A program made the position numbers and the translations under genes. Shown piece after piece: positions 11,500 to 40,581 of a DNA stretch of 41,144 nucleotides. The stretch lies in contig JAGCZA010000134.1 in assembly GCA_017960525.1 (NCBI GenBank), positions 1 through 41,144 on the forward strand, in the 5' to 3' direction. This DNA is from Prevotella sp. (lineage in GTDB: Bacteria > Bacteroidota > Bacteroidia > Bacteroidales > Bacteroidaceae). Under the pieces are notes generated by a model, which saw nothing but the letters and a program-made list of their open reading frames with translations, did not search any database and was not told where the DNA came from. Every line of letters begins with the position of its first letter. Positions within the stretch are counted from its first letter, which is position 1.

Positions 11500-11841
11500 T
11501 TATTCGAGTCCGTTCTTCATCATCAGTTTAAGCAGGTCACGGTTGGAGATGCTGGCCTGGTCGGACTTGTCGTAAATGGTGACGAGCGTGATGTCTGCTC
11601 CGTCGGTCTCTACGAGCACAGTATGGGTAATGACCCTTGCGCCACCGCGCTTGCCCTTGGCCTTCGAGGCGATGGGGAAGCGAACCTTGCGCAGATGCTT
11701 GCCAAGCGGTTCTCCCTGAAGCGGCGACTTGCGCAGGGCATCGAGGAAATCACGGAAGTCGTCTTTCATCGAAGGATAACGCTTGGCGAGTTGTTTCAGT
11801 TCGCGGGCGAAGTCGGGAGTGGTTTCGATCCTACAGTTCAT
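11500..11841 (-). CDS. RelE/ParE-family toxin
   Basis: 113 aa, small and basic, with the RelE/ParE-superfamily pattern: MNCRIETTPDFARELKQLAKRYPS (first strand and helix), LGKHLRKVRFPI, GGARVITHTVL, DITLVTIYDKSDQASIS. Members are ribosome-dependent mRNA interferases or gyrase inhibitors; the sequence alone does not decide which. It overlaps the preceding antitoxin gene by 11 bp, the usual tight coupling of such pairs. The order is antitoxin first, then toxin. The product probably acts in the cytoplasm and is neutralised by the protein encoded at 11831-12055. Confidence 0.8.
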   Translation of the reverse strand: MNCRIETTPDFARELKQLAKRYPSMKDDFRDFLDALRKSPLQGEPLGKHLRKVRFPIASKAKGKRGGARVITHTVLVETDGADITLVTIYDKSDQASISNRDLLKLMMKNGLE

Positions 11842-12055
11842 TTAGCAATTCCTCCGCATTGACACCTTGGAGCCGGCCGTCCTTCATTTGGCGAACCTGG
11901 CCGAAGGCGTGGTCAATCTTTGCAAGGGCCTGCTCCTGTGCTGTGGCTTTCTGACGCACCACATCGGCCTCGCTATAAGTCCACCCCATCTTGGAGACAA
12001 TCTTCTTGAAGAAACTGACCTCGTGGTTGGGAATGTTGATTGTAATTGCCGTCAT
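11831..12055 (-). CDS. Antitoxin partner of the RelE/ParE toxin
   Basis: 74 aa if started at the ATG at 12055 (MTAITINIPNHEVSFFKK). The sequence has a short beta strand (ITINIPN) like ribbon-helix-helix or Phd-type antitoxins, a predicted helix (SFFKKIVSKMGW), and a C-terminal acidic toxin-binding tail (LQGVNAEELLNEL). An upstream in-frame ATG at 12085 is rejected because it would lie inside the promoter -7 box at 12082-12090. The gene overlaps the toxin start by 11 bp. As for other antitoxins it probably represses its own promoter. The exact DNA-binding class is uncertain. Confidence 0.75.
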   Translation of the reverse strand: MTAITINIPNHEVSFFKKIVSKMGWTYSEADVVRQKATAQEQALAKIDHAFGQVRQMKDGRLQGVNAEELLNEL

Positions 12056-12081
12056 ATCAGTTATATTACTATGATTCGGAT

Positions 12082-12114
12082 GCAAAAGTACAACAAATTA
12101 TTTAATCTACCAAA
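12082..12114 (-). promoter_or_regulatory. Toxin-antitoxin promoter
   Basis: On the minus strand TTTG (12111-12114) is followed after exactly 20 bp by TACTTTTGC (12082-12090), a full Bacteroidetes promoter. It sets the transcription start near 12075, which fixes the antitoxin start at 12055. Confidence 0.75.
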
Positions 12115-12148
12115 CTATTTCAGATTATTTCACCAGTCTGGGCATTTA

Positions 12149-12163
12149 CCACAAAAGATGCCG
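12149..12163. repeat. 15-bp sequence shared with 291-305
   Basis: CCACAAAAGATGCCG occurs here and at 291-305, in both cases preceded about 10 bases earlier by TCTGG. Both copies are in intergenic DNA. Confidence 0.5.
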
Positions 12164-12200
12164 GGAAAAGCGACGTTTGCCCGCACCTCTTGCGTTGGAA

Positions 12201-12307
12201 GGCCGGAGGTAAAGTTAAATCAATGACGTTGAACGTTAAATCAATGACATTGAATGATAAATCAAAGGCATTGAACGTTAAATCAATGTCATTGTTTTAA
12301 CTTTTTT
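12201..12307 (+). repeat. Modular GTTAAAT repeat array, copy A (four units)
   Basis: After GGCCGGA-nnn-AAA come three 21-bp units, GTTAAAT + 11-bp core + AAC/AAT, at 12214, 12235 and 12256, then a 25-bp near-palindromic closing unit (12277-12301) and CTTTTTT. Cores are CAATGACGTTG, CAATGACATTG and a variant; the closing core CAATGTCATTG is the exact complement of the second core. The same layout with a different core is at 40517-40581. It lies between the antitoxin promoter and the GH35 promoter. Confidence 0.85.
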
Positions 12308-12330
12308 GTTTCAAAATGGTGACCGTTTTA

Positions 12331-12363
12331 TTTGTCAGTTCATTTTTTTTGTTGTATCTTTGC
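12331..12363 (+). promoter_or_regulatory. GH35 promoter
   Basis: TTTG (12331-12334), 20 bp, TATCTTTGC (12355-12363): a textbook Bacteroidetes promoter. The GH35 ATG is at 12399, giving a leader of about 30 bases. Confidence 0.85.
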
Positions 12364-12398
12364 AGCACTAAAGCAAATACAGTACAAACCAAACAACT

Positions 12399-14762
12399 AT
12401 GAAAACCAAACAATTATTGAAGACTTTGCTGCTGGCCACAGCCCTGACGACCACCGCCACGCTTGGTGCGCAAGCAGCCCCACAGCGCCCAGGCTCTTTT
12501 ACCGTGGGCGACAAGACTTTCCTGCTCAACGGCCAGCCCTTCGTGGTGAAGGCCGCCGAGGTTCACTATCCCCGCATCCCACGCCCCTACTGGGAGCACC
12601 GCATCCAGATGTGCAAGGCACTGGGAATGAACGCCGTATGCATCTACATCTTCTGGAACATCCACGAGCAGCGCGAGGGCGAGTTCGACTTCACGGGCAA
12701 CAGCGATGTGGCTGAGTTCTGCCGACTGGCCCAGAAGAACGGCCTCTATGTCATCGTGCGTCCCGGCCCATACGTCTGCGCCGAGTGGGAGATGGGCGGT
12801 CTGCCCTGGTGGCTGCTGAAGAAAAAAGACATTCGCCTGCGCGAGCGCGACCCCTATTTTATGGAGCGCGTGAAGATATTCGAGCAGAAGGTGGGCGAGC
12901 AACTGAAGCCGCTGACCATCCAGAACGGCGGCCCCATCATTATGGTTCAGGTGGAGAATGAATATGGTTCCTACGGCGAGGACAAGCCATACGTCTCGGA
13001 GATTCGCGACTGTCTGCGCGGCATCTACGGCAAGGAACTGGCGCTGTTCCAGTGCGACTGGTCCAGTAATTTCGAGAAGAACGGCCTCGACGACCTCACT
13101 TGGACGATGAACTTCGGCACGGGCGCCAACATCGACGACCAGTTCCGCCGCCTCGGCCAACTGCGTCCCAATGCGCCGAAGATGTGCTCCGAGTTCTGGA
13201 GCGGCTGGTTCGACAAGTGGGGCGCCCGCCACGAGACGCGCCCCGCCAAGGATATGGTCGACGGTATGGACGAAATGCTCTCGAAGGGCATCAGTTTCTC
13301 GCTCTATATGACCCACGGCGGCACTTCCTTCGGTCACTGGGCAGGCGCCAACTCGCCCGGCTTCGCCCCCGATGTCACCTCCTACGACTACGACGCCCCC
13401 ATCAATGAATACGGCCTCGTTACCCCGAAATTCTGGGAACTGCGCACGATGATGCAGAAATACTCGGACAAGAAACTCCCAGCCGTTCCCAAGGCTCCGA
13501 TGGGCATTATCACCATTCCCAAGTTCGAGTTGAAGGAGTTTGCTCCGCTGATTACCGGCATCAGCCAAGTCGTTGTTTCACCTGAGCCAAAGACTTTTGA
13601 AGAAATGGATATGGGCTGGGGTACTATGTCCTACACGACAATCCTGCCTGAGTTCAAGAGCCAGAGCGTGCTTACTGGCGAGTTCCACGACTTCGCACAA
13701 GTGTTCATCGACGGCAAGTATATTGGCAAGATTGACCGTGTGAAGAACGAAAAGTCGCTCACCCTGCCCCCGATGAGGAAAGATGCAGAACTTTCCATCA
13801 TCGTTGAAGGTATGGGCCGCATCAACTTCGGGCGTGCCATCAAGGACTTCAAAGGCATTATTGGCAATGTGACGATTACCAGCGATTTGGAAAAATATGA
13901 GATGACGGTGAAACCTAAGACGTGGGTTAATGCCACTATTCCCGACGATTACCAAACCGCTGTAAAGGCATTTGAAACCAAAGTGCCTAAAACCACAAAG
14001 GGCGATTTCCTCAAAGCAGGCTACCATCGCGGCTACTTCACGCTGAAGAAGGTGGGCGACACCTTCCTGAACTTCGAGACTTGGGGCAAGGGTCAGGTCT
14101 ATGTGAACGGCCACGCTATGGGCCGCATCTGGAGCATCGGCCCGCAGCAGACGCTCTACGTGCCTGGCTGCTGGCTGAAGAAAGGCAAGAACGAAATCAT
14201 TGTCCTCGACATAGTCGGCCCTCGTGAGGCCGTGGTCTGGGGCCAGGCCGAGCCTGAACTGAACAAACTCCAACTGGAAAAGAGCAACAAGCACAACAAC
14301 ATCGGCGACAAGCCCGACCTCAACTCCGCCACCCCCTGTCCCGTAAACGGCGGTAAATCCGCCGTCACCGCAAAGCCAGGTAACGGCTGGCAGACCTTCC
14401 GCTTCACCACCCCGCAAAAGGGCCGCTACCTCGCCATCGAAGTTCTCTCCACCCAGAAGGACAACGACCGCGTCGCCATTGCCGAACTGTACCTGCAAGG
14501 CACCGACGGCAAACGACTGAGCCGCGAGCCGTGGACCACGAAGTACGCCAACAGTGAGGAGGAAAACGGCAACCACACCGGCGACAAGGTCTTCGACCTG
14601 CAGGAGTCCACCTACTGGCAGACGGAGCGCGGCGCCTCTGCGCCCCACCTCCTGGTCATCGACCTCGGCTCCGTCCAGACCGTCTCTGCCCTCGAATACC
14701 TGCCCCGCGCCGAACAAGGTGCCCCCGGCAGCATCAAAGACTTCAAGGTCTATCTCTATTAA
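12399..14762 (+). CDS. GH35 beta-galactosidase with C-terminal F5/8-type (discoidin-like) domain
   Basis: 787 aa with a signal peptide (cut near AQAA, residue about 27). The GH35 (beta/alpha)8 barrel covers about 32-360. The acid/base is Glu188 in QVENEYG and the nucleophile Glu265 in CSEFWSGWFDKWG. The TIM barrel is followed by the beta-sandwich domains usual in GH35, and the last about 130 residues resemble an F5/8 type C carbohydrate-binding module (LLVIDLGSVQTVSALEYLPR). It hydrolyses terminal beta-galactosides, probably from arabinogalactan or other plant side chains, in the periplasm. It is transcribed alone from the promoter at 12331-12363 and ends at the terminator at 14776-14816. The neighbouring GH43 genes fit a shared arabinose/galactose substrate, which is inference. 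Confidence 0.93.
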   Translation: MKTKQLLKTLLLATALTTTATLGAQAAPQRPGSFTVGDKTFLLNGQPFVVKAAEVHYPRIPRPYWEHRIQMCKALGMNAVCIYIFWNIHEQREGEFDFTGNSDVAEFCRLAQKNGLYVIVRPGPYVCAEWEMGGLPWWLLKKKDIRLRERDPYFMERVKIFEQKVGEQLKPLTIQNGGPIIMVQVENEYGSYGEDKPYVSEIRDCLRGIYGKELALFQCDWSSNFEKNGLDDLTWTMNFGTGANIDDQFRRLGQLRPNAPKMCSEFWSGWFDKWGARHETRPAKDMVDGMDEMLSKGISFSLYMTHGGTSFGHWAGANSPGFAPDVTSYDYDAPINEYGLVTPKFWELRTMMQKYSDKKLPAVPKAPMGIITIPKFELKEFAPLITGISQVVVSPEPKTFEEMDMGWGTMSYTTILPEFKSQSVLTGEFHDFAQVFIDGKYIGKIDRVKNEKSLTLPPMRKDAELSIIVEGMGRINFGRAIKDFKGIIGNVTITSDLEKYEMTVKPKTWVNATIPDDYQTAVKAFETKVPKTTKGDFLKAGYHRGYFTLKKVGDTFLNFETWGKGQVYVNGHAMGRIWSIGPQQTLYVPGCWLKKGKNEIIVLDIVGPREAVVWGQAEPELNKLQLEKSNKHNNIGDKPDLNSATPCPVNGGKSAVTAKPGNGWQTFRFTTPQKGRYLAIEVLSTQKDNDRVAIAELYLQGTDGKRLSREPWTTKYANSEEENGNHTGDKVFDLQESTYWQTERGASAPHLLVIDLGSVQTVSALEYLPRAEQGAPGSIKDFKVYLY

Positions 14763-21593: not shown

Positions 21594-21659
21594 GTTTGGA
21601 CGAACCAAACCTCTTGTTTGGACGAACCAAAGTCACAGTTTGGACGAACCAAATTTTCG
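21594..21659. repeat. Three 22-bp tandem repeats with palindromic core
   Basis: GTTTGGACGAACCAAA occurs at 21594, 21616 and 21638, exactly 22 bp apart, with six variable bases between copies. Each copy contains the inverted repeat TTTGG/CCAAA. Two DNA turns separate the copies, so a protein binding each would lie on one face of the helix. Confidence 0.85.
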
Positions 21660-23845: not shown

Positions 23846-23895
23846 CGTGATAACATAATGCCGTGATAACGTTATAACGTGATAACGACATAACG
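23846..23895 (+). repeat. CGTGATAA-type repeats before ftsI
   Basis: Units CGTGATAA, CGTTATAA, CGTGATAA, CGACATAA with one irregular interruption fill the 94-bp ftsL-ftsI gap. It is the same family as at 27556-27627. Confidence 0.7.
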
Positions 23896-27555: not shown

Positions 27556-27627
27556 CGTGATAACGTCATAACGTGATAACGTAATAACGTGATAACGAAA
27601 TAACGTGATAACGTGATAACGAAATAA
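27556..27627 (+). repeat. Nine-unit CGTGATAA octamer array before mraY
   Basis: Nine consecutive 8-bp units from CGTGATAA (27556) to CGAAATAA (27627), with only positions 3-5 varying (GTG, GTC, GTA, GAA). The array occupies nearly all of the murE-mraY gap. No promoter or hairpin is seen there. Confidence 0.85.
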
Positions 27628-27634
27628 CGAAACT

Positions 27635-38800: not shown

Positions 38801-38831
38801 TTGCGAGTTTTAGTTTTTTTCGGTACTTTTG
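38801..38831 (+). promoter_or_regulatory. Fumarase promoter
   Basis: TTG (38801-38803), 20 bp, TACTTTTG (38824-38831). The fumarase ATG at 38858 lies 27 bases downstream. Confidence 0.75.
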
Positions 38832-38857
38832 TCGGCGAAATACTAAATCGAAATATT

Positions 38858-40510
38858 ATGGCAACAACACCCACATTCAAGTACGCCCCAATGTTCCAGT
38901 TGGGCGAAGACAAGACAGAGTATCGGCTTTTGACCAAGGAGGGCGTGAGCACTTCTTCATTCGAGGGCAAGGAAATCATCAAGGTGTCGAAAGAGGCACT
39001 CACGCTGCTGGCACAGCAGGCTTTCCACGACGTGGAGTTTATGCTGCGCCGTGAGCACAACCTGCAGGTGGCCGCCATCCTGGCCGACCCGGAGGCCTCG
39101 GAGAACGACAAGTACGTAGCCCTGCAGTTCCTGCGCAACGCCGAAGTGGCCGCCCGTGGCATCCTGCCTTTCTGCCAGGACACCGGCACGGCCATCATCC
39201 ACGGAGAGAAAGGCCAGCAGGTGTGGACAGGCTTCGAGGACGAAGAGGCTCTGTCGCTTGGTGTCTTCAACACCTTTACGCAGGACAATCTGCGCTACTC
39301 GCAGAATGCACCTCTTAATATGTACGACGAGGTGAACACACGCTGCAATCTGCCCGCACAGATTGACATCGAGGCCACCGAGGGCGCCGAATACCGCTTC
39401 GTGTTCGTGGCCAAAGGCGGCGGCTCGGCCAACAAGACCTATTTCTATCCAATGACCAAGGCCACCATCCAGAACGAGGGCACGCTCATCCCGTTCCTCG
39501 TGGAGAAGATGAAGAGCCTGGGCACGGCTGCCTGCCCGCCCTATCACATCGCCTTCGTCATCGGCGGCACGTCGGCAGAGAAGAACCTGCTGACGGTGAA
39601 ACTCGCCTCCATCAAATATTACGACTCGCTGCCCACCACAGGCGACGAGACGGGTCGTGCCTTCCGCGACATCGACCTGGAGCAGAAACTCCTGAAGGAA
39701 GCCCACAAGATTGGCCTCGGCGCCCAGTTCGGCGGCAAGTACCTGGCTCACGACATCCGCGTCGTCCGCCTGCCGCGCCACGGTGCATCGTGCCCCATCG
39801 GTATGGGTGTCTCCTGCTCGGCCGACCGCAACATCAAGGCAAAGATTAACGCACAGGGCGTATGGCTGGAGAAGATGGACACGAACCCCTCTGAACTGAT
39901 TCCTGCCGAATACGCCAAGGCTGGCGAGGGACAGAACACCATCACCATCGACCTGAACGAGGGCATCGACGCCGTCCGCAAGGAACTGTCGAAGTATCCC
40001 GTCTCGACCCGCGTCAACCTGAAGGGCACCATCATTGTGGCCCGCGACATTGCCCACGCCAAGCTGAAGGCCCGCATCGACGCAGGCGAGGCAATGCCCG
40101 ACTACTTCAAGAAATATCCTGTGCTCTACGCCGGACCCGCCAAGACCCCGGAGGGCTACCCCTGCGGCTCGATGGGCCCCACCACTGCCAACCGCATGGA
40201 CCCCTACGTGGACGAGTTTCAAAGCCTGGGCGCCTCATTGGTGATGATTGCCAAGGGCAACCGCAGCGACGTGGTGACCGAAGCCTGCAAGAAGCATGGC
40301 GGCTTCTACCTGGGCAGCATCGGCGGCGTGGCTGCCGTACTGTCGCAGTCGAGCATCAAGTCGATTGAGTGCGTAGAGTATCCTGAATTGGGTATGGAAG
40401 CCATCTGGAAGATTGACGTGGAAGACTTCCCCGCCTTCATCCTGGTAGACGACAAGGGCAACGACTTCTTCAAGACCCTCAAGCCCTGGGCCCCGTGTGG
40501 GGTCAAATAG
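38858..40510 (+). CDS. Class I fumarate hydratase (iron-sulfur, FumA/FumB type)
   Basis: 550 aa, usual length. It interconverts fumarate and malate in the reductive (succinate-forming) branch typical of fermenting Bacteroidales. Cysteines able to hold the [4Fe-4S] cluster are Cys106 in PFCQDTGTA, Cys226 in [19 protein letters not shown], and Cys312/Cys320 in [17 protein letters not shown]. The C-terminal beta domain contains [18 protein letters not shown] and ends WAPCGVK. The start [13 protein letters not shown] is preferred over an in-frame ATG at 38801, which would lie inside the promoter. A modular repeat and T run follow six bases after the stop. Confidence 0.95.
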
Positions 40511-40516
40511 ACAAGT

Positions 40517-40581
40517 GGCCGGAAACAAAGTTAAATCCTCGACGTGGAACGTTAAATCCACGTCGAGGATTTAACTTTTTT
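40517..40581 (+). repeat. Modular GTTAAAT repeat, copy B (also a likely terminator)
   Basis: GGCCGGA-nnn-AAA, then a 21-bp unit GTTAAAT + CCTCGACGTGG + AAC (40530-40550), then the 25-bp closing unit GTTAAAT + CCACGTCGAGG + ATTTAAC (40551-40575) and CTTTTTT. The two cores are exact complements, giving an 18-bp stem GTTAAATCCTCGACGTGG. The same frame with a different core is at 12201-12307. Placed just after the fumarase stop, it can terminate its transcript. Confidence 0.88.

Follow-up and report, generated by a model that had tools for sequence, protein, structure and literature searches.

What kind of element are the two intergenic repeats of this Prevotella contig, and what keeps their form? 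The window, by which we mean the whole stretch of 41,144 nucleotides analysed, carries two copies, both on the plus strand. Copy A consists of a left lead GGCCGGAGGTAAA (12201-12213), which in other copies of the same genome (G000) reads CGGAGGCAAA and variants thereof, an array of four 21-bp units spanning 12214-12297 (12214-12234, 12235-12255, 12256-12276 and 12277-12297) and a right end TAACTTTTTT (12298-12307); Tandem Repeats Finder reports it as 12214-12294 with a period of 21, 3.9 copies and 85% matches. Copy B, with the left lead GGCCGGAAACAAA (40517-40529) and the right end TAACTTTTTT (40572-40581), has two units only (40530-40550 and 40551-40571; together 40530-40571) and thus departs from the four-unit architecture that recurs elsewhere. 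The original prediction described both copies as a constant frame around exchangeable, complementary cores. The repeat and the complementarity stand, as units 1 to 3 of copy A have near-palindromic cores centred on A, A and G with unit 4 as the T-centred complement, and the copy B cores CCTCGACGTGG and CCACGTCGAGG are perfectly complementary. The frame also varies, as AAT ends unit 2 of copy A and GATAAAT opens unit 3.

Copy A precedes a beta-galactosidase gene (PF01301; 12399-14762, plus strand) and by manual reading is flanked by ORFs that face away from it (11834-12085, minus, and 12399-14762, plus), the mechanical ORF caller having chosen an overlapping plus-strand ORF instead of 11834-12085. 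To its left, two small ORFs on the minus strand (11503-12085) are perhaps a toxin-antitoxin pair; one of them resembles RelE, though its score of 20.8 bits stays under the Pfam cut-off of 27. Copy B starts 6 bases past the stop codon of a fumarate hydratase gene (38801-40510; PF05681, PF05683). Elsewhere the window contains intergenic 8-bp repeats CGTGATAA (23846-23895 and 27556-27629), and related genomes contain heptamer repeats (GTGATAA, GTTAAAT), some of them directly past a fumarase stop codon; in G172, four perfect 22-bp repeats GTGCTAAATGCCATACTTACGA (L090) lie upstream of a fumarase-like gene.

The repeat is real and exceeds chance. In its own genome the exact word AACGTTAAATC occurs 17 times as compared to once for the reversed control, and AAAGTTAAATN11AACGTTAAAT with up to three mismatches 35 times as compared to 5. 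At least 18 arrays were read in G000, and 15 of the 18 have exactly four 21-bp units. Among 100 distinct arrays from 15 genomes, 83 have four units in register, seven have three, six two, three five and one, the false hit L172, a single unit; among 28 arrays retrieved with patterns demanding only two units the corresponding numbers are 20 with four, five with two, two with five and one with three. A sequence-only model found matches in at least 23 of 37 related genomes, with at least 30 rows, both strands counted, in the best genome; the loci fetched for reading were the best-scoring rows among its matches listed. Copies in G000 and in its relatives bear out the notion of a modular element that is dispersed and whose frame is constant while the core can be exchanged. 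Many further copies exist in Prevotella, and the two loci of the window are no coincidental terminators. A pattern scan of GTDB genomes, which may omit the window's own genome, returned 17 stretches, every title being Prevotella or Prevotellaceae and many referring to the gut of sheep, red deer or roe deer; a strict whole-element pattern matched one of 200 genomes of the genus and was too strict.

Relatives keep the architecture of four 21-bp units but with different sequences. Across 13 genomes the unit consensus is approximately G-W-T-A-A-A-W-C-N-N-Y-G-N-C-R-N-N-G-W-W-Y, a dyad about position 13 (C8-NN-Y-G-N-C-R-NN-G18) with anchor frequencies of 0.96 for C8, 0.98 for G12, 0.99 for C14 and 0.95 for G18. 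The turnover of cores between lineages was seen in several distinct cores (CAATGACATTG, CGCCGACGGTG, CCTCGACGAGG, TGCGTCATTG and others), copy B being close to the CCTCGACGAGG subfamily found in G400, and subfamilies differ in frame as well as in core (GATAAAACTGCGTCATTGTTT in G172, GTAGAAACCACGACGGCGTTT in G343 and ATTCCACGTCGATGAAC in G083). Orthologous arrays of G072 and G312, whose flanks match, differ by whole units (4 versus 2; 5 versus 4). On sequence alone, we discarded the idea that the units code for protein.

Is it then a hairpin that is conserved? Six elements fold with z-scores of -4.2 to -8.8; three four-unit arrays of G000, a genome in which units 1 and 4 form inverted ends, fold into one long hairpin and two arrays from sheep or deer into two hairpins. 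Arrays of G000 and G312 fold strongly and those of G083 weakly (-2.1); in G172 the mean z of -1.0 is close to chance. Complementarity of the cores was compared within and between elements of the same genome, using 79 arrays from the ten genomes with at least three arrays each (84 of 94 distinct arrays had been kept after those with low scores or broken register were dropped), and within elements it was hardly above the between-element draws. Uncorrected P values for the six unit pairs were 0.016, 0.02, 0.04, 0.05 and twice above 0.5, and the two arms of unit 4 gave P 0.014 (79 arrays); neither G000 (10 arrays) nor G312/G072 (7 arrays) alone shows within-element covariation of the cores. The units of one element stand out from the shuffle to a greater extent by their identity (z up to 5.5), a result that local duplication or homogenisation would produce. 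Selection for a hairpin, as originally proposed, hence does not hold as a general rule: cores barely covary and some lineages barely fold.

These findings also bear on the view that the elements are intrinsic transcription terminators, that is, hairpins with a T-run whose cores are exchanged by compensatory change. Copy B agrees with it, as its first unit lies 19 bases past the fumarase stop codon and combines a perfect stem with T6, so that its hairpin and T-run may double as an intrinsic terminator of that gene, and the z-scores of the six folded elements are in its favour too. However, the ORFs on either side of copy A diverge from it, all kinds of gene orientation occur around the arrays (29 loci, mechanical gene calls), and 14 of 18 G379 arrays among the matches listed lack a run of four Ts at the right end. 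Given in addition the near-chance folds of G172 and the lack of covariation within G000 or G312/G072, we consider it unlikely that termination accounts for the family.

What does persist across arrays is the period and the dyad. The constancy of the 21-bp spacing, of the unit number four and of the anchors C8, G12, C14 and G18 suggests protein binding, and directs attention to a gene that accompanies the arrays and lies outside the window. When the flanks of the arrays were blasted against each other, the same gene was found behind arrays of G000, G072, G312 and G379 and behind three of G083. In G000, G072, G312, G379 and G172 an array lies immediately 5' of orthologs that are of the HU-HIG type, as it does at three paralogs in G083, and the sole array row of G097 among the matches listed is directly upstream of a divergent paralog. 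In the window's genome the partner gene is located outside the window (G000:C15:6946-7566, 208 amino acids). Copy A is identical to the array of this gene at 73 of 84 bases, and at the right end the first 9 of 9 bases are the same.

All three of the proteins scanned match Pfam PF18291 (HU-HIG, a family reportedly named by Burroughs in 2017) with E values of 2e-9 to 3e-14 and scores of 37.9, 49.0 and 53.3 bits as compared to the curated cut-off of 26.2, while the partner protein scores below the cut-off of TIGR01201 (HU_rel). The name HU-HIG is broad, since PF18291 is above its cut-off in 9 of 14 control genomes too, E. coli included; three genomes have 11, 6 and 10 matches, respectively. AlphaFold2 (AF2) models the whole protein poorly (mean pLDDT 45.7) and residues 138-209 with a mean pLDDT of 75.8 and a predicted H-H-H-E-E order. 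Foldseek returned no match at E<=0.001 with the whole-protein model, and the top matches of the C-terminal domain are of the MarR/ArsR type (best E 0.03, none at E<=0.001). The C-terminal domain is tentatively predicted to be a winged helix, and we refer to this histone-like protein, with its HU domain, as HU-winged-helix.

At E<=1e-12 a profile of this protein matched 17 of 21 array-bearing and none of 8 array-free genomes (P 1e-4), the 17 including divergent relatives and a fragment; with the close clade only, the count is 11 of the 21 (P 0.01). The search covered 29 of the 37 genomes of the array survey; the other eight are six that lack any array row, one that has a single row, and G398, whose rows duplicate those of G083. 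Divergent relatives only are present in G097, G204, G399, G400 and G401, and G022 has a C-terminal fragment only. At the same threshold no match was found in G059, which has at least 23 array rows among the matches listed, or in G156, G286 and G101, with one array row each among the matches listed, two of them weak. As to a viral origin, an IMG/VR pattern scan gave 0 viral contigs, none of 109 contigs that matched peptide patterns of the HU protein encodes a relative, and the search found no phage record.

The association extends to HU-HIG-type genes at large. Of 44 distinct genes, comprising the loci from the HU-winged-helix profile search and the PF18291 search, 28 have an array of period 20-23 upstream (self-match of at least 28/42 at lag 20-23) as compared to 6 of 90 control ORFs (Fisher P 4e-12), and 19 of 35 are periodic when the nine genes whose array was known beforehand are removed (P 2e-8); the other 16 of the 44 have no clear upstream array. 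Inspected by eye, the six control positives include two short-repeat runs, one GATAAGTG array and one 22-bp repeat. The lag is 21 in the winged-helix and divergent classes, bar one gene at 22 from a second minisatellite, and 22 in four short HU genes and L360. In G312 and G072 (L076 and L080) the HU-gene array adjoins on its left another minisatellite, which is CTTTGCCGTAATCTTTCTTATA-like and has a period of about 22.

Moreover, the array of the HU gene occupies a fixed position relative to the promoter of that gene, as is expected of an autoregulatory operator. With 14 of 18 genes of the winged-helix class placed and array ends set by eye, the motif TAnnTTTG, which we take to be the Bacteroidetes -7 box, starts 20-22 bp past unit 4 in 12 of 14 genes and at 43 bp, one unit further, in the remaining 2. 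By contrast, none of 78 dispersed Prevotella arrays has such a box at 18-26 bp (P 3e-13). In the divergent-class paralogs the array follows the promoter and lies in the leader, as judged by eye. The position of the array in 12 of the 14 winged-helix genes, upstream of the -7 box, weighs against a structured small RNA or an RNA-protein binding platform, because transcription from the HU promoter would probably not include it. Structure is predicted in several lineages, as such an RNA would require, but window positions 12100-12450, the region searched, gave no Rfam match (best E 0.074, with a score well short of the gathering threshold), and we give this explanation very little credence.

The dispersed arrays also resemble the HU array of their own genome. 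For 60 dispersed arrays from seven genomes with a close-clade HU array, the best match was the HU array of the same genome in 45, and the true pairing of genomes and arrays was the best of 5040 label permutations, a procedure that leaves shared ancestry in place. The proportion is lower in G379 (10 of 17) and G072 (1 of 3), and the HU gene array of G382 is of the TTACGACGTAA type, unlike the few GTTAAAT arrays of that genome. Protein and array similarity are weakly correlated among 11 genes (rho 0.24, P 0.051), the C-terminal part giving rho 0.37 (P 0.013).

Could the arrays instead be non-autonomous repeats of the BrickBuilt or REP kind (MITE), spread by a transposase or other machinery, their location at HU genes merely reflecting insertion or ancestry? 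Their dispersal, the occurrence of all gene orientations and the lineage-specific expansions are what such an element would show, and the P. gingivalis BrickBuilt element does have 23-nt tandem repeats (PMC4596501). In G382, the nearest relative found (89% by the fumarase gene), the GTTAAAT array is missing at all four alignable intergenic sites of seven G000 loci queried, which also favours mobility. Then again, flanks between these genomes are too diverged for a target-site duplication or an empty site to be demonstrated, and mere insertion or ancestry would not readily explain the phasing to the promoter at HU genes and its absence at dispersed Prevotella arrays, the possession of individual array sequences by HU paralogs, or the co-occurrence of array and gene. 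A Y1 transposase (RAYT), the kind of transposase searched for, was rejected as the partner, as none of 22 Y1 loci has an array within about 1.5 kb and G379 and G296 have no Y1 match. We therefore regard the MITE explanation as improbable, if less so than termination.

All in all, we think it probable that both elements of the window are dispersed copies of the cognate, promoter-phased operator array of the HU-winged-helix protein. HU-fold proteins are dimers, and the symmetry of the unit is compatible with a dimer. We propose that dimers of the protein would bind the unit dyads through the winged helix, and as 21 bp correspond to two helical turns, four dimers would come to lie on one face of the DNA. 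At the HU promoter the array, just upstream of the core promoter, would serve as an autoregulatory operator. It may have been copied around the genome, and the dispersed copies, if they have a role at all, would be bound as architectural (nucleoid or partition-like) sites or as local regulators.

Arrays of this kind also precede such genes in other gut Bacteroidales. When plasmid records, which we guess to be chromosome pieces of draft assemblies, were searched with the protein, seven HU-HIG-type relatives emerged, and the upstream DNA of four of them, from Parabacteroides, Bacteroides and Phocaeicola, contains an array in 4 of 4 cases (lag 21, 21, 21 and 22). These genes were found from the protein alone; the HU-winged-helix protein is WP_005856492.1 in Parabacteroides distasonis and WP_022275387.1 in Bacteroides finegoldii. 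Of the four arrays, two recur in further records from their own species. That of P. distasonis is present at 15 places in 9 records, counting the one at the HU gene, all six records whose description was read being of strain TSDC17.2-1.1, and that of B. finegoldii at 24 places in 9 records, its own, the only one read, included; units being near-palindromic, such places may count both strands. The five dispersed P. distasonis copies read are situated between unrelated genes (recR, valS or relA, for example), and a hypothetical gene covers one further match. In 2 of the 5 copies the -7 box is retained at the equivalent place, so that there the copied stretch exceeds the array. In the collection searched, the Phocaeicola array matched only itself, and the matches of a second B. 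finegoldii array were confined to two places of the record that holds it. With two intergenic sequences as control queries, nothing but self-matches and one 35-base match was obtained.

Does each HU paralog have an array of its own? In G382 an unrelated array of three 22-bp units (GATAAGTG family) occupies 2 of 5 sites orthologous to G000 sites, with 178 sites in G382 and one in G000; at the sites of L008 and copy B it is a three-unit 22-bp array with the last unit inverted, GATAAGTGCCACTTATCTCCGA. The GATAAGTGCCACTTATCTCCGA word occurs at 178 sites in G382, at a single site in G000 and at between 0 and 5 sites in twelve other genomes, and 28 of the first 34 loci listed have exactly three units, the 34 being distributed over the orientations ++ (9), -- (10), +- (8) and -+ (6) with one unassigned. 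We note that the GATAAGTGSCACTTATC arrays of G382 (L284-L317; three 22-bp units, 178 sites per strand) are expanded in one species and near-absent from its nearest relative. The GATAAGTG sequence also precedes a different HU gene, the short HU gene L348 of G382, and the G000 counterpart L349 lies behind an array of three 22-bp units of AGTTATATACCTTCTAACTGGG, a word also arrayed beside another G000 element. Less firmly, this would be a second array-gene pair, as with 178 GATAAGTG sites in G382 the pairing at L348 could be due to chance. Window positions 21594-21654 hold three 17-bp palindromes GTTTGGACGAACCAAAC at an exact spacing of 22 bp, and GTTTGGACG, present twice at a spacing of 44 bp, precedes the 128-amino-acid HU-type gene L357 of G000; these are possibly a third pair. 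Two short HU genes of G059, L361 and L367, have GGCAAATGGCGGCGTTTCCAAG-like 22-bp arrays upstream.

It is tempting to generalise, though we do so tentatively and with somewhat more doubt than belief, that Bacteroidales possess many parallel, mutually insulated 'private address' systems in which HU-HIG-type paralogs would each have a helically phased array of their own (four 21-bp units for HU-winged-helix, three 22-bp units for some short HU proteins), the promoter copy sensing the protein level, the scattered copies acting as architectural or partition sites and the address changing between species. If arrays are HU-HIG targets, binding sites could be read directly from the genome. Intergenic repeats of gut bacteria that are orphans at present, BrickBuilt perhaps among them, would then gain a protein and a function, and the protein-DNA pairs would form a natural series in which spacing and copy number are retained as the sequence of the site changes.

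Of the known elements, BrickBuilt of P. gingivalis (19 copies, 23-nt units, 1 to 22.8 repeats per element, with leader, tail and IS5-type terminal repeats; PMC4596501) shares with our arrays the dispersed intergenic tandem arrangement in a Bacteroidales genome and units of about two helical turns. It differs in having units of 23 nt rather than 21 bp and variable copy numbers, and in the sections consulted no link with HU is claimed (PMC4596501). According to Table 1 of that source, its shortest element, BrickBuilt_14 (84 nt), adjoins the PF00216 DNA-binding gene PGN_0872 (PMC4596501), which would fit the rule that such arrays accompany HU genes. Our gene resembles the HU-HIG family (PF18291; TIGR01201, HU_rel) in scoring above the PF18291 cut-off, whereas searches of the open-licence literature gave no description of a cognate operator array, of dispersed copies or of a target site for HU-HIG proteins. 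REP/BIME elements with their RAYT resemble our arrays in being palindromic, in their dispersal over intergenic regions and in their link to one gene, but here the partner is HU-winged-helix, a Y1 link is missing and the units are four direct 21-bp repeats. Finally, in ParB-parS and KorB-type systems repeated sites for one DNA-binding protein occur both at the promoter of its gene and at scattered places of the chromosome; our arrays likewise comprise repeated sites at the promoter of one candidate protein and dispersed copies, but differ in that this protein has an HU fold and that the sequence of its site turns over between species.
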